A stretch of 64,000 nucleotides of DNA from Comamonadaceae bacterium CG12_big_fil_rev_8_21_14_0_65_59_15 (GTDB lineage Bacteria; Pseudomonadota; Gammaproteobacteria; Burkholderiales; Burkholderiaceae_C). The stretch lies in assembly GCA_002786915.1 (NCBI GenBank), contig PCUV01000094.1, positions 30,264 to 94,263 of the forward strand, given 5' to 3'. The first letter of the stretch is position 1; each line of letters opens with the position of its first letter. The notes under the pieces are model-generated. The model made no database searches. It saw only the letters and a list, made by a program, of their open reading frames with translations, and was not told the origin of the DNA. Shown piece by piece: positions 212-41,659 of this stretch. Both the position numbers and the translations under genes were made by a program.

Positions 212-365
212 ATGCGCCAGTCTTGCTCACCTGCAAAGACTGGTCTCAGGTGTTTGTGATTGATCCCTCAGGTCAATACCCGATGCCAGCCGATGGCAAG
301 AAATGGTACTGTGCGGCGCAGCAGGCTACGTCTGGCGCTTGCCCCGTCCCCAAATCTGTTTACCC

Positions 366-2102
366 ATGCCAACGCCCCCGCGCCCCATCCTGATCGTTGA
401 AGACGAAACCATCGTCGCGCGCGATCTGCAAGGCCAGCTTGAGCTGCTGGGCTACACCGTAGCCGGGCTGGCGCACACCGGCGAGCAAGCCATTGTGCTG
501 GCAGCACAGTTGCAACCCGAGCTGGTGCTGATGGACATCCAGCTCGGCACCGGCATCGACGGCATCGCAGCGGCGCTGGCCATCCGCACACAGCGCGACG
601 TGCCAGTGGTTTTTTTAAGCGCTTTCGCCGCCGACGAAGTTTTGCAGCGCGCCCAACTGGCCGAGCCCTACGGTTACATTCTCAAACCGTTTTCAGAGCG
701 TGAACTGCAAACCGTGCTGAAAATGGCGTTTTTCAAGCAGCAAGCGCAACAGCGAGAGCGCGATCTGATCCACAGCAACCAGGCCATGCTGGACACGCTG
801 ACGTTTTATGACGAACTCACCGGCCTGCCCAATCGCCGCTGCCTGGTTGACAAGCTCGCGCAAGCAGTGGCGGCCAAAGCACAGTCCGGGCAACACGGCG
901 CGCTGATTTTTCTGGACCTGGACCACTTCAGACTCATCAACGACACACTGGGGCCGGGTTTTGGCGACCAACTGCTGCGCGCCGTGGCGCACCGGCTCAA
1001 CCAATGCGTACGCGAAGAAGACACGGTGGCGCATTTGGGCGGTGACGAGTTCATGGTGATGCTTGACACCCTGGGCACGGACAAGGCACTGGCCGCCAAC
1101 CGGGCCGAAGCCGTGGCAGACAAAATTTGCCACGCGCTAAGTCAGCCGTACAGCCTGAGCGGCCACGCTCACCGCAGCTCGGCCAGCGTGGGCATCGTCA
1201 TGTTTGACCAGTACGGCGCCAACACCGACGAGCTGCTCAAAATGGCCGACGCCGCCATGTACCAGGCCAAGTCTGCCGGGCGCAACGCGGTGCGCTTTTT
1301 TGACCCCGCCATGCAAGCACAAATGCAGGCGCGCAACGCGCTGGAATCCGACTTGCAACGCGGCTTGCAGGTGCAAGAATTTGTGCTGCACTACCAGTTG
1401 CAGGTCAACACCCAGGGCGAGCCCCTGGGTGTCGAGGCGCTGGTGCGCTGGCAACACCCCACGCGCGGGCTCGTGTCACCGGTGGAATTCATTGCTTTGG
1501 CCGAAGAAACCGGCCTGATCCTGACGCTAGGGCAATGGGTGCTCGACACCGCTTGTCAGCAACTGGTGCAATGGGCACAGCAGCCGCAACAGGCGCGCTG
1601 GGTCATGGCGGTGAATGTCAGCGCGCTGCAGTTTGCCCAGGACGACTTTGTGCAAGGCGTGGCACAGGCGATCAATTTGTCGGGCGCCAACCCGACGCGG
1701 CTCAAGCTGGAGCTGACCGAGTCGATGCTGCTCAACAACGTCGAAGAAGTCATCAGCAAGATGCACCAGCTCAAAACCATGGGCGTGAGCTTTTCGCTGG
1801 ACGACTTTGGCACCGGCTATTCGTCGCTGGCGTACCTTAAAAGGCTGCCGCTGGACCAGCTCAAGATCGACCAGTCGTTTGTGCGCGACTTGTTGACCGA
1901 CCCCGACGACGCCACGCTATGCCAAACCATTGTGTCGCTCGGGCACAACCTGGGCATGCACGTGATCGCCGAGGGCGTTGAAACCGAAGGCCACCGCGCG
2001 GCACTGGCCGCTATGGACTGCGACGCCTTTCAGGGCTACCTGTTCGCCCGCCCCCAGCCCGCTGACAAGCTGCTAAAAGTTACAGATCAAATGAACGAGT
2101 AA
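366..2102 (+). CDS. Response regulator receiver - GGDEF - EAL protein
   Basis: ILIVEDETIVARD receiver; HLGGDEFMVM; GVEALVRWQHP; DDFGTGYSSL. Start set at ATG 366 (MPTPPRPILIVEDE) rather than 303. Confidence 0.9.
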   Translation: MPTPPRPILIVEDETIVARDLQGQLELLGYTVAGLAHTGEQAIVLAAQLQPELVLMDIQLGTGIDGIAAALAIRTQRDVPVVFLSAFAADEVLQRAQLAEPYGYILKPFSERELQTVLKMAFFKQQAQQRERDLIHSNQAMLDTLTFYDELTGLPNRRCLVDKLAQAVAAKAQSGQHGALIFLDLDHFRLINDTLGPGFGDQLLRAVAHRLNQCVREEDTVAHLGGDEFMVMLDTLGTDKALAANRAEAVADKICHALSQPYSLSGHAHRSSASVGIVMFDQYGANTDELLKMADAAMYQAKSAGRNAVRFFDPAMQAQMQARNALESDLQRGLQVQEFVLHYQLQVNTQGEPLGVEALVRWQHPTRGLVSPVEFIALAEETGLILTLGQWVLDTACQQLVQWAQQPQQARWVMAVNVSALQFAQDDFVQGVAQAINLSGANPTRLKLELTESMLLNNVEEVISKMHQLKTMGVSFSLDDFGTGYSSLAYLKRLPLDQLKIDQSFVRDLLTDPDDATLCQTIVSLGHNLGMHVIAEGVETEGHRAALAAMDCDAFQGYLFARPQPADKLLKVTDQMNE

Positions 2103-2891: not shown

Positions 2892-5810
2892 CTATGGCGC
2901 CAGCGTCACAGCAGGCGCTACGGTAAAGGTAACGGCAAATGCGGTGCCGGGGCCGGGCTCGATCTGTAGCGTGCCTTTGAGTTGTTGCGTCAGGTCCGCC
3001 ACCAGTTGCAGGCCCAGGGACTGGGTGCGCCGGGACTCAAAGTCGGCGCTCAGGCCCACGCCGTCGTCGCTCACGCGCAGGCACCACTGGCTGTTGGCGG
3101 CTTGGACGCCCACGGTATCCACGGCATCCACTGCGCCCACGCCATCCACGGCGTGCAAATCAATGCGTACCACGCCGCTGCGGCCTTCGGGAAAGCCGTG
3201 TTTCAGGCAGTTGCTGATCAGCTCGTTGAGCAGCAGGCCGCACGGCGTGGCCTGGTCCAAGCTAACCCGCACGCTGTCGAGCGCCAACTGCAGGCGCACC
3301 GAGGCGCTGCTTTGCGCCCGAAAAGCCTGGCCGGCGAGCTGCCCCAGGTAGGCCCCCAGGTCCACCCATGCAAAAGTGCCAGCGCGATACAGCGACTCGT
3401 GCAACAGCGCCATGGCGCGAATACGACCCTGCATCTCGGTCAGTACATGTCGCGTTTCGCCCTGACTGCTGCGCCCGGCCTCCAGCCGCAACAGGCTGCT
3501 GATCACCTGCAGGTTGTTCTTGACGCGGTGGTGTACTTCGTTGAGCAGCGCAATCTTGTCAGACAACGATGCCTGCAGCGCCTGCTCGGTGCGCTTACGC
3601 TCGGTAATGTCGTGCTGGAGCCCTACGTAGTGCAGTGTGTTGCCCACACCGCGCACCGGCGCCACCACCGCTTGGTCCACATACAGCTCGCCGCTCTTTT
3701 TTTTGTTGTGAAATTCGCCGCGCCATACTTCGCCTGCGGTCAGGCTGTGCCACAGGCTCTGGTACACCTCGGGCGGGGTCAGGCCGGACTTCAGCACGCG
3801 CGGGTTCTGGCCGTACAGCTCTTCGCGGCTATAACCGGTGCATTGCGTGGCAAAAGGGTTGGCGTACTCGATGTTGCCCGCCAGGTCGGTGACCACAATG
3901 CTCATCGGCGCCTGTTCCACAATGTACGACAAGGTACGCAGTTGGTCCTGGGCGAGCTTACGCTCCGTGATATCGGTAATGAAGCCATGCCACAGCACGG
4001 CGCCATCGGCCAGTGGCTCAGGCAGCGCGTTGCCAAACAACCAGCGCACCGTACCATCGTCAAACTTGACGCGATACTCCTGCTGCCAGGGTGTGAGGCT
4101 GCGCGCTGACTGCAAGATCGAGGCGCGCAGACAGTCAATGTCGTCGGGATGACAAGCGCTAAACGCGCCAGACGCGTCGGTTTTAACTTGCTCCGGGCTG
4201 TACCGGGAGAGCTGGCGTAAACCTTCACTGGCAAATGGAAAGCAGGAGCTGCCATCGGCGCGCAACAGGTACTGATAGACCATGCCGGGCACCTGGTTGG
4301 CAATTTTTTGCAGCCGGGCCAGTGCTTCGTCGCGCGAGCGCTGCGCTGCCACGCGCGCGGAGATGTCGTGCGCCACCGCCTGGGTGGCGCTCTGGCCTTC
4401 AAAGATGACGGCGTGGCCGGTGGCCTCCACGTCAATCACCGTACCGTCAAGCCTGATGAATTTCTCTTGCAGGGTCCCGCCATCGATGTTGTCTTGCTGG
4501 CTACGCCGGATGCGCTCAAACACCACTTGACGAGAGTCCGGATGGATGCGCTCCAGAATGGGCTGACCCAGCAAGTCTTGCGCGGAACTGGCGCCAAAGA
4601 GTTTGACCGTGGCCGGGTTCACATAAATGAATTTACCGTCGCGATGCACAAACATGGCGTCTGGTGTCCAGTCGATCAGAGTGCGATAGCGCGCCTCGCT
4701 CTCGGCCAGCGCAGCGTCGCGCTGACGCAGCGTGGCAAGCATTTGGTTAAAACCCTCAATCAACTGCCCCACTTCATCGGCTCTGTTCACAGCCAGAGGT
4801 GCCGGGAACGGGGCGTTGGGGTCAAACTTTTGCAGGGCGTTTGTGGCGACCTGCAGCGGCGCCAGTTGCCGGCGCAGCAGCCACCAGGTCAGCAAGCCGG
4901 CCAGCAGGGTCAGCACAGATGCAGCCACGGCCATGCGCTGCTGTAGCGCGTGGATGGGGGCAAAGGCTATCTGGGTCGGCAGGGTGATGGCAACGTACCA
5001 ACCGGCAGCGGGGATGTTTTTGGCTGAGACCAACACCTCGACGCCAAGGGGGTTGATAAAAACGTCGCTGCCCTCGTGCCCCTGCGCATAGCGATCCAGC
5101 GCGGGAATCACGCCGGGCGCAGGCAACGCGGCCATGATGCGGCTCGGGTTGGAGCTGGTCACGTTAAGTCGGTGCTGCGATGCCACCACATAATAGTTGC
5201 TTCGGTCTGGATCGTGGCGCCGGGCTACCCGATCCAGAAAATTGGGGCGGTTCAGGTTCACTACCCCGGCCAAAACACCCATCACGCCACCACTGGCCGC
5301 CCTGATGGGTACCGCCATGACCAAGCTCGGGTTCTGTGTGATTTTGCTTCGCGTCGGCTTGCCAACGGTGGCTTTGCCGTCTTTGAGCGGGCCAATGATG
5401 TAATCTCGCTCGCTGAAATTGGCACCCAAGCGCCCACTCTGCTTCGGAAAATCAGCCAGCACCGTGCCGTCCACGCCGGTGCTCGCTACACCCTGGTTGA
5501 ACAATTGCGCCAGCAGTGGGCGATGCTCCAAAAAAGCTTGCAGGTCGGCAGGACGCTGCAGCATGGCCGGGGTGATTTCGCTGGCAATGGTTGTCAGCGC
5601 CTGTAGCCGGTCGGCCACTTCATGATCAATTTCTTCGGCCAGCAAAGTCACGGTGGCGAACTGTTGTTCAGCCAGTGTCTGTTGCAGGTCGTCATGCAAC
5701 ATCCGGCTGACAAAAAAAGTCAGCGACCAGATGCTGACCAAAAAGACGCCCATGGTGAGCAGCGTGATGCGCGTCTTGAGCGATTTCGTTCCCAATGTGA
5801 GTTTCGTCAT
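2892..5810 (-). CDS. Membrane sensor histidine kinase: Cache-like domain, HAMP, several PAS, HisKA_2/HATPase
   Basis: N-terminal TM, extracytoplasmic region, HAMP-like PLQVATNALQKF, PAS repeats ending in DITERK, HHRVKNNLQVISSLLRLE typical of HisKA_2. Confidence 0.85.
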   Translation of the reverse strand: MTKLTLGTKSLKTRITLLTMGVFLVSIWSLTFFVSRMLHDDLQQTLAEQQFATVTLLAEEIDHEVADRLQALTTIASEITPAMLQRPADLQAFLEHRPLLAQLFNQGVASTGVDGTVLADFPKQSGRLGANFSERDYIIGPLKDGKATVGKPTRSKITQNPSLVMAVPIRAASGGVMGVLAGVVNLNRPNFLDRVARRHDPDRSNYYVVASQHRLNVTSSNPSRIMAALPAPGVIPALDRYAQGHEGSDVFINPLGVEVLVSAKNIPAAGWYVAITLPTQIAFAPIHALQQRMAVAASVLTLLAGLLTWWLLRRQLAPLQVATNALQKFDPNAPFPAPLAVNRADEVGQLIEGFNQMLATLRQRDAALAESEARYRTLIDWTPDAMFVHRDGKFIYVNPATVKLFGASSAQDLLGQPILERIHPDSRQVVFERIRRSQQDNIDGGTLQEKFIRLDGTVIDVEATGHAVIFEGQSATQAVAHDISARVAAQRSRDEALARLQKIANQVPGMVYQYLLRADGSSCFPFASEGLRQLSRYSPEQVKTDASGAFSACHPDDIDCLRASILQSARSLTPWQQEYRVKFDDGTVRWLFGNALPEPLADGAVLWHGFITDITERKLAQDQLRTLSYIVEQAPMSIVVTDLAGNIEYANPFATQCTGYSREELYGQNPRVLKSGLTPPEVYQSLWHSLTAGEVWRGEFHNKKKSGELYVDQAVVAPVRGVGNTLHYVGLQHDITERKRTEQALQASLSDKIALLNEVHHRVKNNLQVISSLLRLEAGRSSQGETRHVLTEMQGRIRAMALLHESLYRAGTFAWVDLGAYLGQLAGQAFRAQSSASVRLQLALDSVRVSLDQATPCGLLLNELISNCLKHGFPEGRSGVVRIDLHAVDGVGAVDAVDTVGVQAANSQWCLRVSDDGVGLSADFESRRTQSLGLQLVADLTQQLKGTLQIEPGPGTAFAVTFTVAPAVTLAP

Positions 5811-5891: not shown

Positions 5892-6057
5892 ACAAATCGC
5901 AAGAGATGGTGGTTAGGGACTGGGATCAGGATAAATTTGTTCTCAGGTTTTGCCGATGCCGCATTGGGGTATTGACCTGATGTTGCAGGGGCACCAAAGT
6001 GCCTACAGTGCCACCCATGCGAATCGATCTTTTGCAAATTAACGTTGGGTGGCGTGC

Positions 6058-6444
6058 ATGACACTCAACATCCTGCTGGTTGACGACAACCTCACTTTTT
6101 TGGCCTCGGTCAAACATTTGCTGACCCTGCAGCCGCACACCCGCATCGTGGCTGAGGCGCACAACGGTGCGCAGGCGCTAGCGCTGGCGCAGCAACACCA
6201 GCCCGACCTGGTGCTGCTTGACATCGTGATGCCGGGCATGAGCGGGCTGGAGGTAGCCAAAACCCTGCAAACCTGGCCCAACCCGCCCAAGGTGCTGTTT
6301 TTGACCCTGCACGACAATGACTCGTACCGTAGCGCGGCCAAGGCGTTGGGCGCACTGGGGTTGGTGGGTAAAGCCAACTTTGTCTCAGAGTTGCTGCCCA
6401 TCATCACCCAACTGAGCCAGGACTGCCCGGAGGACGCGTCATGA
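6058..6444 (+). CDS. Response regulator (receiver domain)
   Basis: [20 protein letters not shown]...[17 protein letters not shown]...[12 protein letters not shown]. Stop overlaps next start. Confidence 0.85.
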
Positions 6445-7595
6445 CCAGCTTTATCCCAGCGCGCAAGCAAAAATACTATCCAGCGGCCTTGGGTGCTGCG
6501 GGTGCAGCTTCTGTTTTAGTAGCATGTGGGCTGGGTACCGTGCCCCTTGGGCTGGCCATTGTGCTGCTGCTGGCGGGCCTGCTGCTGGGCAAAAAGATCA
6601 ACCAGCGCCAGGCTGACTTGCAGCAGGCCGTGGCTGACTTCATGGCCGGCCAGGCAGACTTTGGCGCACAAGTCACGCCGGTCTGGGGCAACCACATCGA
6701 GTCGTCACGCGAGCAAATGGCATCTGCCATCAACTCGCTGACCGAGCGCTTTGGCGGCATTGTTGACAAGCTTGACACCACCCTGCGCACCGCCACACAG
6801 GCCACCGACAGCGTGGAAGGCGGCGGCACGGATCTGGTCGCGGTTTTTGACAAGAGCGAAAAAGACCTCAAGGCGCTGATCACCGTGCAACAGGCGTCCA
6901 TGGCCAACATGGAATCCATGCTGACCAAAGTGCAGGGGCTGGACCGCTTTATTGCAGAGTTGCAAGACATGGCCTCTGACGTGGCACGCATTGCCCAGCA
7001 AACCAATTTGCTGGCCCTGAACGCGGCCATAGAAGCCGCCAGGGCGGGCGAGCTAGGACGTGGCTTTGCCGTGGTGGCCAAAGAATTCCGCATGCTGTCC
7101 AACCAGTCGGGCCAGTCGGGCAAAAAAATTGCCGAAACCGTCAAGGTCATCAGCGCCGCCATTGTTGACACTTGCACCACGGTGCGCGAATCAGTGCTGG
7201 CTGAAGACCAGTCGCTGGAAGCCGCGCACACCACCATTGACCAGGTGATGGCCGATTTTCGCAACATCACCGAAGCGTTTCAGCAGTCCAGCGACCTGCT
7301 GCAAAGTGAGAGCATGAGCATCCAGTCTGAAGTGAACCAGGCGCTGGTTCAAATGCAGTTTCAGGATCGTGTCAGTCAGATCATGACGCAGGTTGTCACC
7401 AACATCGAACGCCTGCCCACCATCTTGCAAGAGCAGCAACAGCACTACGCACAAACCGGTGCGCTGGTGGCACACGACCCCCAAGACATGCTCGACGAGA
7501 TGAAAAAGTCTTACGTGATGGCCGACCAGCACGTGATCCATGAAGGCGGAAAAGTGGTGGCAAGCAGTGGCGCAACGGATATCAGCTTTTTTTAG
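6441..7595 (+). CDS. Methyl-accepting chemotaxis protein with TM hairpin and no obvious periplasmic ligand domain
   Basis: [35 protein letters not shown] signalling tip; closely spaced N-terminal hydrophobic segments. Confidence 0.88.
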
Positions 7596-7605
7596 AGGAT
7601 AAGAC

Positions 7606-7974
7606 ATGGCCAAACTGATCATGATTGTGGACGACTCAGCGTCAATGCGGCGCGTCGTAGGCATCTCACTCAAAGGCGCTGGGTACGACGTCATCGAAGG
7701 CTGCGACGGCAAAGACGCCCTGTCCAAGCTGACCGGGCAAAAAGTGCACCTGATCATCAGCGACGTGAACATGCCCATCATGGACGGCATTGCGTTTTTG
7801 AAAGCCGTCAAGCAAATGCCGGCCTACAAGTTCACGCCGGTCATCATGCTCACCACCGAGTCGGCGGAAGAAAAAAAGCGCGAGGGCCAGGCAGCCGGTG
7901 CGCGCGCCTGGGTGGTGAAACCTTTTCAACCTGAACAACTTGTGAACGCCGTACAACGGCTGTGCCTGCCATGA
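7606..7974 (+). CDS. cheY: CheY-like response regulator
   Basis: MIVDDSASMRRVVGISLKGAGYDV...ISDVNMPIMDGIAFL...VVKPFQPEQLVNAV. Confidence 0.9.
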   Translation: MAKLIMIVDDSASMRRVVGISLKGAGYDVIEGCDGKDALSKLTGQKVHLIISDVNMPIMDGIAFLKAVKQMPAYKFTPVIMLTTESAEEKKREGQAAGARAWVVKPFQPEQLVNAVQRLCLP

Positions 7975-8273
7975 GCCAAAACACTTTAAAAATTGAAGGC
8001 GAGCTCACCATCTTTCGTGCCATGGAGCTCAAGCCTGCCTTGCTGGCTACCCCGCCGGTGGATGAAATTGACCTCTCTGGTGTGACCGACCTTGACACCG
8101 CCGGCGTGCAACTGCTGATGCTGGCCAAAAAAACCGCATTGGCGCAGCAGCGCGACGTCAAGCTCACAGGCCATAGCCCGGCCGTGCTGGATGTGTTTGA
8201 GCTGCTCAACGTGGCAGGCTACTTTGGCGACCATCTGGTGATGGATTCGGCCAAAAACAATTCAAGGAGCTGA
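7971..8273 (+). CDS. STAS-domain protein
   Basis: TLKIEGELTIFRAMELKPALL...EIDLSGVTDLDTAGVQLLMLAKK; ATGA overlap with cheY stop. Confidence 0.8.
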   Translation: MSQNTLKIEGELTIFRAMELKPALLATPPVDEIDLSGVTDLDTAGVQLLMLAKKTALAQQRDVKLTGHSPAVLDVFELLNVAGYFGDHLVMDSAKNNSRS

Positions 8274-8274
8274 C

Positions 8275-10449
8275 ATGGAAATGGACGACGCACTAGAGAC
8301 ATTCATTGTTGAATGTCGGGAGCTGCTCGATGACATGGAAACCGCGTTGTTGGGCGTGGAAGCAGCGGACGACAAAACCGAGATGATCAACGCCATCTTT
8401 CGCGCCGCGCACACCATCAAGGGATCCAGCGGGCTGTTCAGCCTGGACCATGTGGTGGCCTTTACCCACGTAGTGGAAAGCGTGCTCGACAAGGTGCGCG
8501 GCGGCAAGCTGGCGCTGGCTGACAAGCTGGTGGTATTGCTGCTGGCGTGCAACGACCACATTGGCAAACTGGTGGACGGCGTGGCGGCGGGTGAACACGC
8601 CGGTACGCCCGAGCTGCTGGCAGCGGGAGAACCGCTGGTGGCGCAATTGCGCGCTTACCTGGATGTTCCCAAAGATCAAGCCAATGCCAATGCTGGTGCA
8701 CGCCGCGTACCCACCGCCGACACCGAGCAGGTGCAGCGCATCAACGCCGACACGGTCAACGCAGACCACTGGCACATTTCGGTGCGCTTTGCCCCCGACG
8801 TGTTGCGCAACGGCATGGACCCGCTGTCGTTCATACGCTACCTGGGCACCATGGGCAAGATCAAGGCGATTGAAACCGTAGCAGATGCCCTGCCCGACGC
8901 CGACGCCATGGACCCCGAGCTGTGCTACCTGGGCTTTGAGATGGCCTTTCAGACCCGGGTGGACAAAGCGGCGATTGAAAAAGTATTTGAATTTGTGCGC
9001 GACGACAGCCGCCTGGTGATCTTGCCCCCGCACAGCCGTATGTCAGAGTACGTCAGCCTGATCAGCATGCAGCCGGGCGAACTGACACGCCTGGGCGACA
9101 TGCTGGTGCGCTGCGGCACGCTCACACCCAACGAGCTCGACATGGCGCTGGACAAGCAAGCCGACACGCCCGCCAAGCCGATTGGCACCATTCTGGTGGA
9201 ACAGGGCTCGGTTCGGCCCGAGGTGGTTGAAGCGGCCTTGACCAAACAAAAGCTGGTCAAGGAAACCGCAGCCACTGAAAGCAAATCCATCCGTGTGGAT
9301 GCCGACAAGCTCGACAGCCTGATCAACCTGGTGGGCGAGCTGATCATTGCCGGGGCCAGCGTGAACCTGATCGCGCACCGCTCCAAAGTGATCGAGCTGA
9401 CCGAATCCACCTCCAAGCTGGCCACACTGGTTGAAGAAGTGCGCGACAGCGCCCTGCAACTGCGCATGGTGCGCATTGGCGCCACGTTTAACCGCTTTCA
9501 GCGCGTGGTGCACGACGTGTCGCGCGACCTGGGCAAAGACATTGCCTTGCAGATTGACGGCGAAGACACCGAGCTGGACAAAACCGTGGTGGAAAAAATT
9601 GGCGACCCGCTGATGCACCTGGTGCGCAATTGCATGGACCACGGCATTGAAAGTGCCGAGCTGCGCCAGCAGCGCGGCAAGCCGGTACAAGGCATGGTCA
9701 AGCTCAACGCTTTTCACGACAGCGGCTCAATCGTCATCACGGTCGAAGACGACGGCGGCGGCCTTAAAAAAGACCGTATCCTGGCCAAGGCGGTGGAGCG
9801 TGGTCTGGTCGAGGCCGGCCACCACCTGAGCGATGCCGACATTTACGGCCTGGTGTTCGAGCCCGGTTTTTCTACCGCAGAGAAGGTCACCAACCTGTCG
9901 GGCCGCGGTGTCGGGCTGGACGTGGTCAAGCGCAACATTACCGCGCTGCGCGGCACGGTGGGCATCACCAGCAACGAGGGCGTGGGCACCAAGGTGTCGA
10001 TCCGTCTGCCGCTCACGCTGGCCATCATCGACGGCTTTTTGGTCGGCATTGACAAAGCCGTGTATGCCATTCCGCTGGACATGATCGAAGAGTGCGTGGC
10101 CTACAGCGCCGAGCCAGGCCACGACTACACCAACCTGCGCGGCGAGGTGTTGCCCTTTATTCGCCTGCGTGAGCTGTTTTCGGTACCAGGCAAACCGGCC
10201 AAGGGCGAAAACATTGTGGTGCTCAAACACGCCGGGCAAAAGGCCGGGCTGGTGGTGGACACCCTGCTGGGCGAGTTTCAGACCGTCATCAAACCGCTGG
10301 GCCAGATGTTTGCGCAAAGCCGCTGCATCAGTGGTTCCACCATTTTGGGCAGTGGCGACGTGGCGTTGATTCTGGACGTGCCGCAACTGGTGCGCCAGGC
10401 GATGGAAAAAGGTAGCCAAGTAGGGCAAGAACACGCGGTATTGAATTGA
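8275..10449 (+). CDS. cheA: Chemotaxis histidine kinase CheA with internal MshEN/GspE-N-like tandem motif
   Basis: HPt [11 protein letters not shown]; dimerisation [20 protein letters not shown]; HATPase [24 protein letters not shown]; CheW-like C-terminus. Confidence 0.93.
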
Positions 10450-10477: not shown

Positions 10478-12133
10478 ATGTTTGCAAATATGAAAATCGG
10501 CCTGCGCTTGTCGCTGGGCTTTGCCATTGTGTTGGCATTGATGGCCGCGCTGGCGGCGGTGGGTATCAACGGCATGGCCAATGTGCAGGAGCGGCTTGAT
10601 GGCATCGTGAATGACAACATGCACAAAATCGCACTCAATACCGACATGTCGCAGCAGATTCATATCGTTACACGCTTGATGCGCACGACGGTTTTGCTGA
10701 AAGATCCGGCAGCGATTGCAGCCGAGCACAAGAAGATTGCCGATGCCCGCAAGAAATACGCCGAAGCCTTTGATGCGCTGGAAAAAACCACGGCGAGCGA
10801 AAAAGGCAAAGCTTTGCGCGGCAGGATCAAATCAGCGTTGGCCGAAGCTACCCCGTTGAATGACAAGGTGCTGGAGCTCGACTCAGCGGGGAAAGACGAA
10901 GAGGCAGTGGACTTTCTGATCAAGGTTGCCGCACCGGCTACGCAGAAAGTGCAAGACATCCTGGAAGAAAACATGGTTTTCCAGGACGATGATGCTGATG
11001 CCGACCATGCTGCCGCCAAAGCCGCCTACGCATCAGCCCACACCCTGATGCTGACACTGGCAGCGGTGGCCATTGGCCTGGGTGCGCTGTTGGCCTGGAT
11101 ATTGACCCGCTCCATCACCCAACCGGTGAACGAAGCCCTGAACGTGGCCAACCGCCTGGCCGACGGCGACCTGACCGTGCGCATTGACAACCCGTCCAAA
11201 GACGAGACCGGGCAAATGCTGGCCGCCATGCAAGGCATGATCGGCAAGCTCACACAAGTCGTTACCGACGTGAACGGTGGCGCGCAAGCACTAGCCAGCG
11301 CCTCAGAGGAGGTGAGCGCCACCGCGCAGTCTTTAAGCCAGGCGGCCAGCGAACAAGCCGCCGGTGTGGAAGAAACCTCGGCCAGCATCGAGCAAATGAC
11401 TTCGTCGATTGCGCAGAATACCGAAAACGCCAAGATCACCGACGGCATGGCCAGCAAGGCCGCCAAAGACGCGGCCGACGGCGGCGAAGCCGTGAAGGCC
11501 ACGGTCGAAGCGATGAAGCAGATCGCCAAGAAGATCGGCATCATCGACGACATTGCCGCACAAACCAACCTGCTGGCCCTGAACGCCGCCATTGAAGCCG
11601 CGCGCGCTGGTGAGCACGGCAAAGGCTTTGCCGTGGTAGCCGCAGAAGTGCGCAAACTGGCCGAACGCAGCCAGGTGGCCGCGCAAGAAATTGGCGAAGT
11701 GGCTGGCAGCAGCGTGGAACTGGCCGAAAAGGCCGGCAAGCTCCTGGACGAGATCGTGCCCAACATCCGCAAGACATCAGACCTGGTGCAAGAGATCACC
11801 GCCGCATCTACAGAACAAAGCAGTGGCGTCGGCCAGATCAACAGCGCCGTGAGCCAGCTCAACACCACCACGCAGCAAAACGCCAGCAGCTCTGAAGAGC
11901 TAGCCGCCACCAGTGAAGAGATGAGCAGCCAGGCCGAACAGCTGCAACACACCATGATGTACTTCAAGCTCGACGGTGCCAGCCAGGGCGGGGGCAGCTT
12001 TGCGATCCACAAGAGCAGCGCCAGCAGCAAAAAGGCCGCGCAGCCCAAAGCCGCAGCCAGCGCCAAAGCCGCACCCAAGGCCACCGCTACAGCCAGCGCC
12101 GATCTGGACGAAACCCAGTTTACGAAGTTTTAA
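10478..12133 (+). CDS. Methyl-accepting chemotaxis protein (4HB-type sensor, HAMP, signalling domain)
   Basis: [19 protein letters not shown]...; [46 protein letters not shown]. Confidence 0.92.
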
Positions 12134-12252: not shown

Positions 12253-12816
12253 ATGGACGAAATAGTTCCAGCCAATACAAAACTTGTAGCTGCCCAGGCA
12301 AGCGCAGCAAGCGCTAGCGAGGCAAAACAGTACTTGACTTTTATGCTCGGCGGCGAGATGTTCTCGATCGGCATTCTGTGCATCAAAGAGATCATCTGGT
12401 ACGCTAACCTGACCGAAGTGCCGATGATGCCCGCGTGCATTCGCGGGGTCATCAACCTGCGCGGCGCGGTGGTGCCGGTGCTGGATTTGTCCAACCGCTT
12501 TGGCAAACCTTCTACGCCGGTGATCAAAAGCACCTGCATCGTGATTGTGGAAGTGCCCACCGCCAATGAGGGTGAGCACCAGAACATGGGCATCGTGGTC
12601 GATTCAGTGCAGGCGGTGCTGGAAATCCCCACGTCTGAGATTGAGCCCGCGCCCAGCTTTGGCACCAAGATTCGAAGCGAATTCATTGAAGGCATTGCCA
12701 AGGTGGACGGCAAGTTTGTGATTCTGCTGGACGTGGCCAAAGTGCTGTCGATGCAGGAGATTGGGCAACTGGGGCAGGTGGCGGCGCTGCCAAATGTGGC
12801 GCCGGCCGAGGCCTGA
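12253..12816 (+). CDS. cheW: Chemotaxis adaptor CheW
   Basis: QYLTFMLGGEMFSIGILCIKEIIWYANLTEVPMMPACIRGVINLRGAVVPVLDL. Confidence 0.92.
   Translation: MDEIVPANTKLVAAQASAASASEAKQYLTFMLGGEMFSIGILCIKEIIWYANLTEVPMMPACIRGVINLRGAVVPVLDLSNRFGKPSTPVIKSTCIVIVEVPTANEGEHQNMGIVVDSVQAVLEIPTSEIEPAPSFGTKIRSEFIEGIAKVDGKFVILLDVAKVLSMQEIGQLGQVAALPNVAPAEA
12281..12322 (+). repeat. Possible copy E of the ~55-bp in-frame repeat, inside the cheW N-terminus
   Basis: AACTTGTAGCTGCCCAGGCAAGCGCAGCAAGCGCTAGCGAGGC shares CTTGTAGC and GCGCAGCAAGCGC with the reverse complement of copy D (60715-60771); needs small gaps. Confidence 0.4.
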
Positions 12817-12883
12817 TGCCAAGATTTTTCTTACTGAGAGTATGGCAAGGCAATACCAGTCACTAACCACTGGAAAAAACACC

Positions 12884-13174
12884 ATGACTGTGAGTATTGC
12901 CAAACCCTTGTCGGTCAAACTCGACGCGCAAACGCGGGCGCGCATTGAGAACCTGGCTGCGTCGCGCCGTCGCACCACCCACTGGATGATGCGTGAAGCG
13001 ATTGCACAGTACATTGAGCGCGAAGAACAGCGCAACAGTTTGCAGCAGGATGCGGTTGCCGCATGGGAGGCTTATCAAGCCAAGGGATTGCATTTGACGC
13101 TGGAAGAGGCCGATGCCTGGATGGCCAAGCTTGAAGCTGGGCAAGACGTGGAGCCGCCACCATGCCACGTCTGA
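12884..13174 (+). CDS. RHH/CopG-type antitoxin (RelB/ParD-like)
   Basis: LSVKLDAQTRARIENLAASRRRTTHWMMREAIAQYIEREEQRN...YQAKGLHLTLEEADAWMAKLEAG. Confidence 0.75.
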   Translation: MTVSIAKPLSVKLDAQTRARIENLAASRRRTTHWMMREAIAQYIEREEQRNSLQQDAVAAWEAYQAKGLHLTLEEADAWMAKLEAGQDVEPPPCHV

Positions 13175-13254
13175 TTTGGCCACCGCCTGCGCTGCTGGAT
13201 TTTGTTAGACACCAGAAAGAGCTTGGCTACCAAGATCGGCACACCACAGCATGA
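13162..13254 (+). pseudogene. Truncated ParE/RelE-type toxin remnant
   Basis: Reads MPRLIWPPPALLDFVRHQKELGYQDRHTTA*; start overlaps antitoxin end as in parDE operons, N-terminus resembles ParE (MPRLIWSP.ALLD), then stops after 30 codons. Confidence 0.6.
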
Positions 13255-15788
13255 AGCTTCAAAGCAAAATCTGGCTGAGTTGTGGCGCGGTGGTGGCCGT
13301 AGTGATGGCCATCGACTTGGGCGTAGGTTACCGCGATGTGCAAGCCGGTGTGCATGCCCAGGCCAGCGACGATGCACGCATTGTGCAAAGCTTGCTGATG
13401 GCCACGCGGCGCATCTACCACCAGCAGTTTCTGGACAGTGGGATAGAACTCAATTCACACACCATTGGTTTTTTGCCGGCGCATGCGATGAGCAAAATTT
13501 CGGCAGATTTGCCCAATTGGCTCAAGAGCGGCCTGCGTTTTAACAACGTGTCAGACCGCCCCCGCAACCAGAACAACGCCGCTGATGCGGTGGAGCTTGA
13601 AGACATGGCCTGGTTTCGGGCCAACCCCAAGGCGAAAGACCGCAGCCTGGATATCCGGGATGCATCAGGCAAACGTTTTTATCACTTTGCCGCCCCGATC
13701 TGGATCGAGCCCTATTGCCTGAAGTGCCATGGCGAGCGCAGTGCCACGCCGGCTGCCATTCGAGATACTTATGACCAGGCCTATGGCTACAAAGTAGGTG
13801 ATTTGCGCGGTGTGCTGAGCATCCACGTGCCCACCGACGAGCTGCGTGCCAGTGCCCTGCAAACTTGGCTGGAGCGCAGCGTAGGCCGCTTGGTGGGCTA
13901 CGCGGCCTTGCTGTTGCTGCTGGGCTTGATGTTGCAGCACCTGGTGGCGCACCGGTTAACCGCACTCGGGCTTGCCGTGAAGCGCCTGCAAACGGGCGAG
14001 CTGGCTACGCGGGTAGATGCTTCTGGAAACGATGAGTTGAGCGAACTCTCGCAGGGGTTCAACCACATGGCCGAAGGCTTGGCCAAGCGTGATGCTGCGG
14101 TGCACGAAAGCATGTTGCAGTTGCGCGAGAGCGAGTCCAAGTACCGCTCGGTGTTGGCCAGCTCGCAGGATGGTTTTTTGCTGGCAAACGCGCAGGGGCG
14201 GCTGCTTGAAGTCAACGATGCCTATGTGGCCATGACCGGCTTTAGCCGCGAAGAACTGTTGCAGATGAGCGTGGCGGATTTGAAGGCAGACGAGTCCAGG
14301 GCGCAGGTGCAAGCGCAGTTGCAGGCCATCATGGCGGGCCAGCCGGGTTTGTTTGAAACCCTGCACCAGCGCAAGGATGGCCAAGTGATACCGGTGGAGA
14401 TCAGCGCAACTTTTAATTGGGCTGAAGGCGGCGTATTTGCCGCATTTGTGCGCGACATTTCAAAACGCCAGGAGACCGAGTCGCGCATTCGTCAACTCAA
14501 ATTTTTTGACGGTCTGACCGGGCTGCCCAACCGCGCGATGTTTGTCGAGCGCTGCAACGTCGCATTGCAGCAAGCCCGGACTGTAGCCTCTGGTGCCGCC
14601 GTGATTTGCCTCGATCTGGACCATTTTGGCCATATCAATGACAGCCTGGGACATCAGGCCGGCGACCAGATGCTGGTGCTGCTGGCAGAGCGCTTTCAGA
14701 GCATGCTCGGACCCCATGACTTGCTGGGCCGCCCAGGTGGCGACGAGTTTTTGATCTTTTTGGCCGACACTGACAACGCACGAGCCAACGCCATCGTGGC
14801 CCAACTGACCCAAAGCGTTGCCAGCCCCTTGCGTCTGGAAGGCAAAGACATCGTCATGACCTTGTCGCTGGGCGTGGCCATGGCCCCGCAAGACGGTACC
14901 GATGCTGAAAGTTTGTTGCGCGCAGCAGATACGGCAACCCATTGGGCCAAAAAATCGGGGCTCAATTCGGTGCGTTTTTTCTCCGCCGAAATGCGTCAGT
15001 TGGTTAGCCACCAGATGGCCTTGGACGCTGACCTGCATGAGGCCATGGGGCGCGCCGAGTTTTTGCTGTTTTACCAGGCCCAGGTGTCAGAAGACGGCAC
15101 CGTGGTGGGTGCCGAAGCCTTGATACGATGGCAGCATGGCACACGCGGACTGGTGTCGCCCGCAGAATTTATACCGTTGGCCGAAGAAAATGGCCTGATC
15201 TTGCCACTGGGACAATGGGTGCTCGAGATCGCTTGCCGACAACTGGCTAGGTGGGCCGATCTGCCAACCCTGTCGGCACTGACGATTGCGGTGAATGTCA
15301 GTGCCAAACAATTTCAACTGCCCGACTTTGTTGACAAGGTCACGACGGTCTTGAAACTGACCGGGGCAAATCCAGCGCGACTCAAGCTGGAGCTGACCGA
15401 AAGCCAGTTGGTCAGTGATGTCGAAACCACCATTGAAAAAATGCGCACGCTCAAAAATCTGGGGGTGCAGTTTTCACTGGACGACTTCGGCACCGGCTTT
15501 TCGTCGCTGTCTTACCTGAAGCGCTTGCCGCTGGATCAGCTCAAGATCGACCAGAGTTTTGTGCGTGACATTCTGACTGACCCCGAGGATGCAGCCATAG
15601 CCCGCGCCATCGTGGTGCTGGCACGCGCCATGTCGCTGGAAGTGATCGCTGAAGGGGTCGAGACCGAGGCGCAACGCAACAGCTTGCTGGCACTCGATTG
15701 CCACCTGTTTCAAGGCTATTGGTATGGCAAACCCGTGCCGTTGGCCAACTTTGAGGCCTTTGTCCTGGCGCAGGCCAACAAGGATTGA
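13251..15788 (+). CDS. Membrane c-type-heme sensor (Tll0287/DUF3365-like) - HAMP - PAS - GGDEF - EAL
   Basis: Signal/TM, CLKCHG haem motif (13716-13730), second TM, HAMP, PAS, GRPGGDEFLIF, VGAEALIRWQHGTRG. Confidence 0.85.
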   Translation: MKLQSKIWLSCGAVVAVVMAIDLGVGYRDVQAGVHAQASDDARIVQSLLMATRRIYHQQFLDSGIELNSHTIGFLPAHAMSKISADLPNWLKSGLRFNNVSDRPRNQNNAADAVELEDMAWFRANPKAKDRSLDIRDASGKRFYHFAAPIWIEPYCLKCHGERSATPAAIRDTYDQAYGYKVGDLRGVLSIHVPTDELRASALQTWLERSVGRLVGYAALLLLLGLMLQHLVAHRLTALGLAVKRLQTGELATRVDASGNDELSELSQGFNHMAEGLAKRDAAVHESMLQLRESESKYRSVLASSQDGFLLANAQGRLLEVNDAYVAMTGFSREELLQMSVADLKADESRAQVQAQLQAIMAGQPGLFETLHQRKDGQVIPVEISATFNWAEGGVFAAFVRDISKRQETESRIRQLKFFDGLTGLPNRAMFVERCNVALQQARTVASGAAVICLDLDHFGHINDSLGHQAGDQMLVLLAERFQSMLGPHDLLGRPGGDEFLIFLADTDNARANAIVAQLTQSVASPLRLEGKDIVMTLSLGVAMAPQDGTDAESLLRAADTATHWAKKSGLNSVRFFSAEMRQLVSHQMALDADLHEAMGRAEFLLFYQAQVSEDGTVVGAEALIRWQHGTRGLVSPAEFIPLAEENGLILPLGQWVLEIACRQLARWADLPTLSALTIAVNVSAKQFQLPDFVDKVTTVLKLTGANPARLKLELTESQLVSDVETTIEKMRTLKNLGVQFSLDDFGTGFSSLSYLKRLPLDQLKIDQSFVRDILTDPEDAAIARAIVVLARAMSLEVIAEGVETEAQRNSLLALDCHLFQGYWYGKPVPLANFEAFVLAQANKD

Positions 15789-15794
15789 ACGAAC

Positions 15795-16604
15795 GTGTTA
15801 CCGGTTCTTATTACTGATGCCGAATTTGCCAGATTCCAGCACTTCATTTTTGAGCGCGCCGGCATTTCCATGTCACCGGCCAAAAAAGCGCTGGTAAGCG
15901 GGCGGCTGAGCAAACGGCTGGCGCTGCATGGGCTGGAGAGCTTTGGCGCTTATTTCAAGCTGCTCTCAGACGGGCATCACCCCGACGAGGTGCAGATGGC
16001 GGTAGATTTACTGACAACCAATGAGACTTATTTTTTCAGGGAAATCAAGCATTACGAATTCATGCGCACCCAGGTGCTGGCCGCGCGCAGCCGCCCCACG
16101 CCATGGCGCATCTGGAGTGCAGCCAGCTCCAGCGGCGAAGAGGCCTACAGCATGGCCATGGTGCTGCAAGACTGTATGCAGACCACACCCTGGGAGGTGC
16201 TGGGCACGGATATCAGCACCCGGGTGATCGCCGGGGCGCAGCGCGGACTGTACTCGATGGAGCGCGGCCGCCACATTCCGCCGGACTATCTGCGCCGCTT
16301 TTGCCGCAAGGGCAGCGGCGAATACGAAGGCATGTTGCTGGTAGACCGCGCCCTGCGCAGCAAAGTGACGTTTCGGCAGGCCAACCTGAACACGGCACTG
16401 CCCGAACTGGGCCAGTTTGACATGGTTTTTTTGCGCAATGTGATGATTTACTTTAACAACGACACCAAGCGCGAGGTGGTGGCGCGGGTGATTGCCACCC
16501 TCAAGCCGGGCGGTTACTTTTGCATCGGCCATTCAGAGAGCTTGAACGACATCAGCACGGCGGTGCAGATGGTGGCGCCATCGATTTACCAAAAGCCAGT
16601 GTGA
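15795..16604 (+). CDS. cheR: Chemotaxis methyltransferase CheR
   Basis: LLTTNETYFFREIKHYEFMR; WSAASSSGEEAYSMAMVL; DMVFLRNVMIYFNNDTKREV. Confidence 0.93.
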   Translation: MLPVLITDAEFARFQHFIFERAGISMSPAKKALVSGRLSKRLALHGLESFGAYFKLLSDGHHPDEVQMAVDLLTTNETYFFREIKHYEFMRTQVLAARSRPTPWRIWSAASSSGEEAYSMAMVLQDCMQTTPWEVLGTDISTRVIAGAQRGLYSMERGRHIPPDYLRRFCRKGSGEYEGMLLVDRALRSKVTFRQANLNTALPELGQFDMVFLRNVMIYFNNDTKREVVARVIATLKPGGYFCIGHSESLNDISTAVQMVAPSIYQKPV

Positions 16605-16605
16605 T

Positions 16606-17136
16606 ATGCACCAAATCGACAATTTACTGGATATTTTTTTACAGCCGGGCGAGCTGTTTGTGGCCGACTCGGGCTACCAGATCCGCACCATTCTGGGCTC
16701 GTGCGTTTCGATCACGCTGTGGCACCCAGAGACCGGTTTGGGGGGTATGTCGCATTTTTTGCTACCCACCCGTGGCCACAAGGTGCACCACAGTGAATTC
16801 GATGGCCGCTATGGCGACGAGGCGTTGGCGCTGATGCTGGCCGACTTGCGCGCGCGCGGTGTGGAGCCGCAAGAATGCCAGGGCAAGATTTTTGGTGGCG
16901 GCAACATGTTCCCCGGCATGGGGCACGCCAGCGGCATCAAGGTGGGACACCGCAACGGCCTGGCCGCGCGTGAAATGCTGCGCCAGCATGGCATTCCAGT
17001 GGTAACCGAGAGCCTGTTTGGCATTGGTCACCGACAAATCATTTTTGACCTGAGCCGCGGCGACGTGTGGGCGCGGCAGGTGAAACCCACGCAGCAAGAA
17101 CTGGAAGCGCAGCCCAACATGGACAAACAATCATGA
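16606..17136 (+). CDS. cheD: Chemoreceptor glutamine deamidase CheD
   Basis: [38 protein letters not shown]. Confidence 0.92.
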
Positions 17137-18203
17137 GCAGAATTAAAGTATTAGTGGTAGATGATTCAGCGGTGGTGCGCCAGGTGGTCACCAATATTCT
17201 TGGTGCCGACCCCGACATTGAAGTGATTGCCGCTGCAGCAGACCCCATTTTGGCGATTGCCAAAATGAACGTGCAGTGGCCCGATGTGATTGTGCTGGAC
17301 ATTGAAATGCCGCGCATGGACGGCATCACTTTCCTTAAAAAAATCATGGCCGAGCACCCTACGCCAGTGGTGATCTGCTCCACCCTGGCCGAGGCCGGCA
17401 CGCAAACATCGATGGCAGCGCTGGCCGCCGGCGCGGTGGCGATCATCACCAAGCCCAAAGTGGGGCTGAAACAGTTTCTGGAAGATGATTCTGAGGACAT
17501 CATCAGCGCCGTCAAGGCCGCAGCCAAGTCCAACATGAGCGCGGTGATGCGGGTGCATGCCAAAAACACCGCCGACGTGATCATGCCTGCGGCCGACAAG
17601 CACGGCGCCATGATCCAGACCACCGACCGCGTGGTGGCCATTGGCACATCCACTGGGGGAACGCAGGCGCTGGAGGTGGTGCTGACGATGTTGCCGCGCG
17701 TCACGCCCGGCATGGTGATCGTGCAACACATGCCCGAAAAATTTACCGCTGCCTTTGCCGAGCGGCTCAACGGCCTGTGCCAGATTGAGGTGAAAGAAGC
17801 ACAGAACAACGACCGCGTGATCAACAGCCGCGCACTGATTGCACCCGGGGGCAAGCACATGCTGCTGCGCCGCACCGGTGCCCAGTATTACGTGGAGGTG
17901 ATGGACGGCCCGCTGGTGAACCGGCACCGGCCCAGCGTGGATGTGCTGTTCCGCTCAGTCGCCAAATGCGCCGGAGCCAACGCGCTGGGCGTGATCATGA
18001 CCGGCATGGGCGACGACGGTGCCGCTGGTCTGGCCGAGATGCGTAACGCTGGCGCCCGCACCGTGGGGCAAGATGAGGCCACCTGTGTGGTCTATGGCAT
18101 GCCCAAAGAAGCGGTCAAGCGCGGTGGGGTTGAAAAAACCGTGCCGCTGGGCGCCATTGCGCGTGAGATCATGCAACAGATGTCGGGGGTAATGGTGCGT
18201 TAA
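17133..18203 (+). CDS. cheB: Protein-glutamate methylesterase CheB
   Basis: [68 protein letters not shown]. Confidence 0.94.
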
Positions 18204-39528: not shown

Positions 39529-40410
39529 TTACAAATGCGCCAGCAAAGCCGACTCGGCCAGCAATTCGCCCGGGTCTCCCAGCGCGGATCGCACGGTTGA
39601 CAGGTCGCCCCCCAGGCGCGCTGCCACGCAGGCGGGCCACAGCGGTGGGCCCACATAACCACCAAAATCTTGCCCCCATGCCTTGCTGATCTGGTTGGCC
39701 GCGAAGACGCACGCGGTCATGGGGGTGTCCCACTGCTCAGGGTGGTGCTGATGGCGAATGGTTTGCACCAGGTCTGATGCGAAGCGCCATCTTTCAGCGA
39801 GCATGGCCCCCACGTCTGCATGGTCTGCACCCAGCACGTTGTGCAACGCCAGGTGCAGCGGTTGCTCCTGCCACAAGCTGGCTTCCAGCGCACGACGAAA
39901 CTCTACCGGCATGAACTGCGCGACAACCACTTTGCCAAAGTCGTGCAACAAGCCCGCAATAAAGGTGTCATGCGGGTCAGCCGCCACCTGTGGCAGCGCA
40001 GGCAAGAGCGCACCGCTTTCCTGCGCCTGAGCCAATTGACGCGCTAGCGCGGCGGTCAAGAGCGAATGCTGCAAATAGCCCTGCCCGTCAAACCCGGCCA
40101 GCGGGTTGCTGGGCAACATGCTGATGGCCGTCAGGCTCAGGGCCAGGTTCTTGATGGTATTGAAGCCCAGAAACAGCACCGCGTGGTCAATGGAGGTGAT
40201 TTGCTTGTCCAGTCCATAATAAGCAGAGTTGACCACGCGCAACACCTTGACAGTCATGACGGGGTCATTGCGGATGACTTGCACCATATCTTTGGGTGAG
40301 CAGGCAGCGTCACGCGTGAGCGTAAGAATACGCCTTACAGTGCCAGGAAAAGCCGGCATGGCCTCCACGGCAGAAACCAGGCGGGCTGACAGGTCAGCAC
40401 TTGCTGTCAT
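39529..40410 (-). CDS. HDOD-domain protein
   Basis: LPAFPGTVRRIL-like start, KDMVQVIRNDPVMTVKVLRVVNSAYYGLDKQITSIDHAVLFLGFNTIKNL. Confidence 0.9.
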   Translation of the reverse strand: MTASADLSARLVSAVEAMPAFPGTVRRILTLTRDAACSPKDMVQVIRNDPVMTVKVLRVVNSAYYGLDKQITSIDHAVLFLGFNTIKNLALSLTAISMLPSNPLAGFDGQGYLQHSLLTAALARQLAQAQESGALLPALPQVAADPHDTFIAGLLHDFGKVVVAQFMPVEFRRALEASLWQEQPLHLALHNVLGADHADVGAMLAERWRFASDLVQTIRHQHHPEQWDTPMTACVFAANQISKAWGQDFGGYVGPPLWPACVAARLGGDLSTVRSALGDPGELLAESALLAHL

Positions 40411-40476
40411 GATGGACGAAAAAAGTATTCAGCCACATGACACGAAGTATGACACGGGTCGCCTCCTAGCCTTGAG

Positions 40477-40615
40477 TCAACCTTTGCCAAAAGCCGCACC
40501 GATGATGACCGCGTGGGCGCATGCGTGTGCCTCATCCAACGCGCGGTGCTGCCGAGATGGCAAACCGTTACAGCTTGTTCCTGTGTTTCCCAGGAGGACG
40601 GATACCCACGGGTAA
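40477..40615 (-). pseudogene. Possible remnant of DEDDh 3'-5' exonuclease C-terminus
   Basis: Minus-strand frame reads ...LLGNTGTSCNGLPSRQHRALDEAHACAHAVIIGAAFGKG*, similar to the HRALDDA motif of DnaQ-like exonucleases; no supporting N-terminal region. Confidence 0.35.
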
Positions 40616-40678
40616 GGGCAACCCGTTACGCCACATGCATTACTATTCAGTCTGAATTCTGACGATCAAAAAGTACCC

Positions 40679-41659
40679 ATGCATCCGACAACAGCGCCGG
40701 TCTTATTTCATTTTTTGGCCCATCGCCAAGGGACGCCAGGTGCTGTCTTGCTGGATTGTTCAGACGCCGCAGTCGAGGCGCTGCACACCCTATCGACGCA
40801 CCCTGATTTTGCGACTTTTGCGGCTGAATTTGCGTGCCTGCTGGCGTCCAGTCAAGCCAATGGCCTTGCACCCAATGTATTGGCCAACCTGCAAGCTGCG
40901 GGTTGCGTTGTTGTCAACGATGCATCCATTTGTATGTGCAACGACGCTGGCAAGCCGCAGCCACCACCCGAAGCTGTCTGGATTGACGGCAACTGGTATT
41001 TGGCACCCCCAAGCTCTGCGCAGTCGCCATCTGCATCGAGAACGCTGGCGCTCAAGTTGTTGCAGCTGGTCAACGCCGATGCAGATACGCGCGACATTGA
41101 AGATGTGTTGCGTCAGGATGCAGCACTCTCCTACCATTTGTTGCGGCTGGTGAATTCTTTGGGGATGGGAACCACCCGCCGCATTACCAGCTTTTCACAA
41201 GCGATTTTGATCCTTGGGCACAACCAGTTGCGGCGCTGGCTGAATTTGATGCTTTTTGCGGCGCGCACAGACGACCCTCGCGCACCTATGCTGTTGGCCA
41301 ATGTGACCGTGCGCGCCCGCACGATGGAGTTGCTGGCCAAAGAGTGTGGTCTGGACCGTGCAGACCAGGACATGGCTTTCATGGCGGGTATGTTTTCACT
41401 GCTGGGGGTTTTGTTTGGTACGCCGCTGGCAGAGCTGATCAAGCCCTTGCAGTTGAGCGAGGTGCTGGTCAAGGCTGTCACCAGCCACCAGGGCACAGTT
41501 GGCCAACTGTTGCTGGCAATGGAGCTTGCCGCACAACGCAATGCCTGCGGTGTGGCCCCTGTGCTGGCAAAGCTACAAATCAGCGCCGGGCAATTTACCC
41601 TGGCTAGCCTGAGTGCCTGCCAATGGATGCACGACATGGCCCGGGAGATGCAGCAATGA
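40679..41659 (+). CDS. HDOD-domain protein (EAL-HDOD-like layout with short divergent N-terminus)
   Basis: DIEDVLRQDAALSYHLLRLVNSLGMGTTRRITSFSQAILILGHNQLRRWLNLMLFA. Confidence 0.85.
   Translation: MHPTTAPVLFHFLAHRQGTPGAVLLDCSDAAVEALHTLSTHPDFATFAAEFACLLASSQANGLAPNVLANLQAAGCVVVNDASICMCNDAGKPQPPPEAVWIDGNWYLAPPSSAQSPSASRTLALKLLQLVNADADTRDIEDVLRQDAALSYHLLRLVNSLGMGTTRRITSFSQAILILGHNQLRRWLNLMLFAARTDDPRAPMLLANVTVRARTMELLAKECGLDRADQDMAFMAGMFSLLGVLFGTPLAELIKPLQLSEVLVKAVTSHQGTVGQLLLAMELAAQRNACGVAPVLAKLQISAGQFTLASLSACQWMHDMAREMQQ

Follow-up and report, generated by a model that had tools for sequence, protein, structure and literature searches.

A predicted MshEN_N-type c-di-GMP-binding domain in a Comamonadaceae CheA kinase

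In the 64,000-nucleotide stretch of Comamonadaceae DNA analyzed here (the window), a CheA chemotaxis kinase carries a 54-residue insert between P2 and P3, which would be a four-helix MshEN_N domain able to bind one c-di-GMP. Based on sequence and structural models, CheA residues 272–325 are a genuine MshEN_N homologue, and this domain call is well supported. We consider it fairly probable that the domain binds c-di-GMP and resets the kinase output of CheA; the proposal starts from the observed sequence, homology, fold prediction, conservation and operon, and from these we infer binding, its transmission and the direction and magnitude of the kinase response. MshEN was linked to CheA by Wang et al. 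(2016), who in one sentence, backed by a supplementary table, list 'chemotaxis protein kinase CheA' among its partners and report no function for the fusion (PMC5013675). As that sentence describes them, those fusions share the architecture class of the window CheA, which by its sequence is a further, well-supported case of the MshEN–CheA architecture already named in 2016. No experimental study of any MshEN–CheA was found in the open-access literature searched.

CheA is a 724 amino acid protein with Pfam matches, all above cut-off, to Hpt (residues 6–92), H-kinase_dim (336–395), HATPase_c (444–581) and CheW (587–708), and therefore has what identifies a CheA: an Hpt domain with its His, and dimerization, ATPase and CheW-like domains. 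The phospho-acceptor H46 and the kinase motifs are invariant in a 44-row alignment. Between residues 92 and 336 the Pfam scan gave no assignment, and P2 is placed only by its position and α/β prediction. The same scan of CheA gave a sub-threshold match to DUF4388 (16.8 bits, cut-off 25). The nearest named homologues of this CheA are from Rhodoferax, with full-length identities of up to 87%, and by sequence the source genome is Rhodoferax-like (Comamonadaceae, Burkholderiales). The features of CheA are as follows.

8275..10449, +, CheA histidine kinase, 724 aa, P1(Hpt)-P2-MshEN_N-P3-P4-P5 (translation, Pfam)
9088..9249, +, predicted MshEN_N-type tandem c-di-GMP-binding motif, CheA 272–325 (NF053729, PDB profile matches, AlphaFold2 and Foldseek)
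9088..9159, +, motif I: R272, L273, G274, L288, L292, Q295; 6/6 key residues identical to MshE (sequence compared with PMC5013675, conservation)
9178..9249, +, motif II: P302 in place of Arg, I303, G304, V318 in place of Leu, L322, Q325 (sequence, conservation)
9217..9384, +, helix α4 (CheA 315–337), short low-confidence linker (335–340) and first P3 helix (343–370) (full-length AlphaFold2 model)

Domain assignment and predicted fold

The original prediction described a tandem motif in CheA, at window positions 9088–9249 and just before P3, in which each 24-residue half fits the MshEN signature, the second with P/I/V substitutions. Translation of 8275–10449 places the motif exactly there, at residues 272–325 and directly N-terminal of P3, and the substitutions are present as P302, I303 and V318. 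The two halves do form the tandem motif, but position 11 is T/S in each and not hydrophobic. The arrangement is 24 + 6 + 24, and the spacer is thus of six residues compared with five in MshE. That the signature marks an MshEN-type domain is borne out for MshEN_N by a curated HMM, profile–profile comparison, PDB profile search, the predicted fold and the conserved pocket residues.

The curated NCBIfam model NF053729 ('c-di-GMP_motif, MshE-related', cyclic di-GMP-binding domain-containing protein; 53 positions) matches CheA 272–325 over positions 1–53 of 53 with 42.9 bits (cut-off 38, E 3.1e-11), and it is matched at E≤0.001 by 45/45 aligned CheA homologues. In a six-frame search of the 4.3-Mb genome, it scored above cut-off only in the window CheA and two further ORFs (600 and 859 aa), which also match Pfam PF05157 and which, from their sequences, we read as secretion or pilus ATPases. 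The 859-aa ORF (G000:C67:29743-30081; L173, L174) contains two tandem copies of the motif domain, both above the NF053729 cut-off, in addition to PF05157. A profile built from the CheA domain finds every tree-set CheA with the tandem motif at 36 bits or more, and gave zero matches at E≤1 in the 20-odd tree-set CheAs that lack it. By hhalign the CheA domain aligns with the ATPase MshEN_N domains, taken from PF05157-bearing ORFs, over 53 columns (98.7%, E 2.6e-16). A single-sequence search of the PDB reaches Thermus PilF at 6e-13, and a profile of 23 CheA domains finds PilF (1.5e-25), PilB (5e-10), MshE 5HTL (9e-9) and the PilF–c-di-GMP complexes (~1e-7), with no unrelated protein below E 0.6.

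One check proposed with the original prediction came out negative: Pfam T2SSE_N/MshEN (PF05157) does not match CheA at E≤10. This miss is uninformative because PF05157, a model of 90 positions named 'MshEN', describes the neighboring downstream MshEN_C, starting after the tandem motif. In the 600-aa ORF (minus strand), the PF05157 match covers 55644–55907 and the tandem motif 55908–56066, so that the Pfam match begins where the motif ends. PF05157 was rejected as a test of the CheA domain, since it covers the next subdomain. From its sequence, CheA is an MshEN_N-only protein that has the N-terminal half and lacks MshEN_C. In Vibrio cholerae MshE, the isolated N-terminal half (1–62) has a slightly higher affinity for c-di-GMP than the complete domain (PMC5013675).

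AlphaFold2 predicts the CheA domain, modeled with 45 homologues, as a four-helix bundle (mean pLDDT 79). The superposition on MshEN that had been proposed as a check agrees well, with an rmsd of 0.7–0.9 Å over ~55 residues to c-di-GMP-bound MshE and PilF. In Foldseek against the PDB, the top-ranked structures are c-di-GMP-bound (probability 1.00): 8pfa at 0.8 Å over 55 residues, 5htl (MshE) at 0.7 Å over 54 residues, and 9glg and 8pdk at 0.8–0.9 Å. The X. citri PilB superposes more poorly (1.7–1.9 Å). The short length of the domain (~55 residues) keeps the Foldseek E-values weak, the best being 0.12. In the full-length CheA model (pLDDT 77, pTM 0.45) the four helices span residues 273–280, 285–297, 303–309 and 315–337; the placement of the domain relative to P3/P4 is unreliable because of the pTM of 0.45.

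The MshEN_N of V. cholerae MshE (5HTL, NF053729) has the same tandem 24-residue motifs, four-helix bundle and Gly/Leu/Gln pocket residues. The window domain differs from it in that its host is a CheA kinase and not a pilus ATPase, in the absence of MshEN_C, in the longer spacer and in a motif II that starts with Pro instead of Arg. By sequence, the closest structures are GSPII-C and GSPII-B of Thermus thermophilus PilF (6F8L, 8PDK; the E of 1.5e-25 is for the whole chain, with GSPII-C as the best stretch), both reported to bind c-di-GMP (PMC11731258). In contrast to CheA, PilF is an ATPase host with three GSPII domains in series and a third motif copy in GSPII-C.

Pocket residues and c-di-GMP binding

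Conservation of the putative pocket was counted over 49 non-redundant CheA domains, with the key residues mapped on MshE (PMC5013675). This check of CheA orthologues, proposed with the original prediction, shows hardly any variation at the Gly and Gln of the pocket: G274, G304 and Q325 are each found in 49/49 domains, L292 in 48/49 and Q295 in 47/49. Position 272 is Arg in 38/49 and Lys in 3/49. Positions 293, 294 and 323, next to the glutamines, belong to the most variable ones. The mean entropy of the pocket positions is 0.55 bit versus 1.99 for the remainder, and none of 20,000 random position draws was as low; buried leucines account for part of this difference. Compared with MshE, motif II has identical G304, L322 and Q325 and conservative I303 and V318, and P302, which replaces R38, is outside the extended consensus. 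Over both motifs, 11 of the 12 key ligand positions are within the consensus, P302 being the exception. Position 302 is P, R, L, K or V in 43/49 domains and otherwise Q or H, and it is never Ser.

Several PilF precedents bear on P302. GSPII-B, where Lys and Leu occupy the two Arg sites, bound c-di-GMP at 6 nM; its L196R change weakens binding and Q190E+Q218E abolishes it (PMC11731258). For GSPII-C the reported affinity is close to that of MshE (PMC11731258). It is the PDB domain closest in sequence to the CheA domain and its motif II likewise reads K-P-L-G; it carries three motif copies, and which pair binds is uncertain. The counterpoint to binding is the absence of the stacking Arg from motif II, as Ser at the same site abolished binding in an engineered PilF GSPII-A construct (PMC12002112). 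Even with a perfect consensus, GSPII-A in its full context did not bind, owing to contacts between subdomains and to an N-terminal helix cap, an extension that hinders binding (PMC12002112); unlike it, helix α1 of the CheA domain begins at L273 in the AlphaFold2 models, with no N-terminal extension before it. Taken with the sequence and the models, we regard it as quite probable that the CheA domain binds c-di-GMP, and each 24-residue half would then hold one guanine.

The main alternative is that the domain persists as a ligand-free relic of the MshEN fold and serves in docking; the precedents are XpsE and GSPII-A, both of which kept the fold and lost the ligand despite a near-consensus sequence (PMC5013675; PMC12002112). 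The X. citri PilB N-domain, which binds PilZ (structures 7lkm/7lko), gives an example of docking, and among CheAs the motif II Arg and G311 are relaxed. However, the Gln pair that binds ribose and phosphate, the Gly that contacts guanine and the Leu clusters show almost no variation while the surface positions that flank them vary freely; the main changes that accompany the loss in XpsE (G11V, L29R, G40L, L54H and Q61V) are absent at the corresponding CheA positions, and the model is closer to c-di-GMP-bound structures than to X. citri PilB. The conserved polar pocket suggests that such a relic is disfavored, and we consider it unlikely.

The CheA subfamily and its operon

The spread of the architecture was surveyed with a profile of the domain plus P3, which gives a clean separation of the CheAs. 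In 31 of 150 Burkholderiales-order genomes a CheA matches over both parts (E≤1.4e-43), and other CheAs there, including related ones without the domain, match the P3 part only. Free-standing domain matches in these genomes are separate hits in ORFs of ~570–640 aa and cover about positions 2–64 only. A class-level survey gave full domain + P3 matches in 15/232 genomes. Outside Pseudomonadota, short-linker relatives come from single genomes of Spirochaetales, Desulfuromonas and Desulfobacteraceae, and Anaerolineaceae has a more distant one. The spirochaete and Desulfo-type CheAs (L105, L106, L107 and L108) have motif I without its linker and most also lack its final Gln; judging from these sequences, c-di-GMP binding is less certain in the short forms, which may mark a loss of binding or a different ligand mode.

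In a P3–P5 tree the MshEN label needs 5 changes, versus 18.3 expected with shuffled labels. One large proteobacterial clade bears the domain, with isolated losses (L098, L029 and L030), and since these few related CheAs lost it, the domain is not essential to this kinase class. In L098, a Comamonadaceae orthologue in the same operon, the domain is cleanly missing between P2 and P3 (~residues 294–304 of the CheA ORF), which makes it a natural domain-less control. An orthologue of the window CheA is encoded by R. antarcticus (L054), a culturable Rhodoferax. The source genome has two MshEN CheAs, the window copy and a diverged paralogue (at C78) that scores below the NF053729 cut-off, and its remaining CheAs in the tree set (C22, C19 and C20) are without the domain. 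By these sequence comparisons, the architecture marks a CheA subfamily across Burkholderiales and other Gammaproteobacteria.

The window CheA is encoded in an operon with the order REC – MCP-like – CheY – STAS – CheA – MCP – CheW – RHH – GGDEF-EAL – CheR – CheD – CheB. The genes around cheA, together with a further GGDEF-EAL gene upstream, are:

303..2102, +, REC-GGDEF-EAL protein (Pfam, synteny)
6049..6444, +, single receiver-domain protein, REC (Pfam PF00072)
6441..7595, +, MCP-signaling-domain protein, 384 aa (Pfam PF00015)
7606..7974, +, CheY-like receiver (Pfam PF00072)
7962..8273, +, STAS-domain protein (Pfam PF13466/PF01740)
10478..12133, +, methyl-accepting chemoreceptor with 4HB sensor (Pfam)
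12253..12816, +, CheW (Pfam PF01584)
12866..13174, +, small RHH/CopG-type protein between the CheW and GGDEF-EAL genes
13251..15788, +, Tll0287-HAMP-PAS-GGDEF-EAL protein in the che operon (Pfam, motif check)
15795..16604, +, CheR (Pfam)
16606..17136, +, CheD (Pfam)
17067..18203, +, CheB, REC + methylesterase (Pfam)

The core order MCP-like/CheY/STAS/CheA/MCP/CheW ... CheR/CheD/CheB is maintained across Burkholderiales. In gene content the cluster resembles F7-type chemosensory clusters (STAS anti-sigma-antagonist, cheY, cheA, cheW, receptor, cheR, cheD and cheB; PMC7184735), to which it adds the REC, an extra MCP-like protein and the GGDEF-EAL protein. The window che cluster is separate from the CheA at C22, which we take to be the flagellar one. 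The interval between the RHH/CopG-type gene and the next ORF is too short for a partner toxin gene, and the RHH/CopG-type gene is retained in the near-identical L097 (Rhodoferax STB_186).

The GGDEF-EAL protein that the original prediction noted in the operon is indeed there (13251–15788), with intact PGGDEF, EALIR and DDFG motifs, but orthologous operons do not, in general, carry it in this place. As a conserved partner of CheA it was rejected: among the loci compared, besides the window only L046 has a GGDEF-EAL protein downstream of CheA, with a different N-terminal sensor. In ten Comamonadaceae-type loci, a GGDEF-EAL gene homologous to 303–2102, followed by a PAS histidine kinase gene, lies upstream of the che operon on the same strand; in L049 the two are 2 bp apart and the REC follows within 70 bp. 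This upstream GGDEF-EAL gene, different from the one inside the operon, is conserved in Rhodoferax relatives. The window PAS/HisKA_2 sensor kinase (2892–5810, minus strand) is inverted relative to its homologues in Rhodoferax relatives, where it is co-directional between the GGDEF-EAL and REC genes, and from the gene order this would be a local inversion or replacement in the source genome. As the gene neighborhoods indicate, c-di-GMP turnover genes accompany the che operon in Rhodoferax, and not everywhere. It was also considered that CheA might, in a general Wsp-like scheme, phosphorylate the REC-GGDEF-EAL protein encoded upstream (303–2102), and this was rejected; it does not generalize because the homologues in L049 and L054 have PAS, not REC, as N-terminal domain at the locus edge.

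The window as a whole is rich in nucleotide second-messenger genes, among them a CHASE2-adenylate/guanylate cyclase, a REC-HD_5 (HD-GYP-like) protein, an HDOD protein and a further PAS-GGDEF-EAL protein (33113–35347 and 38100–43716). At 20947–32781 (+) lie genes for a 1665-aa cadherin/Big-repeat protein and, after it, for two ABC transporters, an HlyD-type adaptor and an outer-membrane efflux protein; this gene content suggests an adhesin secreted by a type I system together with its exporter, adjoining c-di-GMP genes.

Possible control of the kinase

One question raised by the position of the domain is how a bound ligand could reach the kinase. Binding of c-di-GMP would order the four-helix bundle on the P2–P3 linker, and the long last helix would pass via a short linker into the first P3 (dimerization) helix. 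In the model, α4, the linker and the first P3 helix form the likely transmission path. Ligand occupancy may then alter the P3/P4 geometry, or the access of P1/P2, and reset CheA autophosphorylation in the array. Weighing sequence and models, we lean toward control of the CheA kinase by c-di-GMP, and the effect may go either way.

Another hypothesis is that the domain does bind c-di-GMP and yet governs array assembly or localization, or the choice of CheA partners, instead of catalytic activity. MshEN_N sits on the P2–P3 linker, distant in sequence from the P4 active site, and its GspE/PilB-type relatives are parts of secretion and pilus machines, both of which would fit such a role. The position of the domain directly before the P3 helix would, however, favor a conformational effect on the dimer, and we consider this hypothesis rather improbable. 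That the motif is a chance helical repeat, conceivable since helical repeats rich in Leu and Gln are common and motif II departs from the strict pattern, is refuted by the curated HMM score above cut-off, the whole-genome specificity, the profile E-values, the fold match and the conservation across phyla.

Direct input of c-di-GMP into chemosensory signaling, predicted here for the window CheA, is known from the PilZ chemoreceptors Tlp1 and Cbp1 and from MapZ–CheR1 (PMC6454048), though in those systems a PilZ domain acts at the receptor or methyltransferase and not in the kinase. Through an MshEN_N domain that binds c-di-GMP and resets the kinase, a che operon with c-di-GMP synthesis and degradation genes would gain a direct second-messenger input and possibly a feedback loop. 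A wider and more tentative view is that an ancient CheA subfamily, spread over several phyla, lets c-di-GMP gate the kinase via a built-in MshEN_N domain, and that in Rhodoferax the GGDEF-EAL genes in the gene block close a feedback loop between the array and the c-di-GMP pool. If true, c-di-GMP sensed within the core kinase would act upstream of all receptor signals in the array, and an input at the kinase would explain a chemosensory system that is set by the motile or sessile state of the cell.
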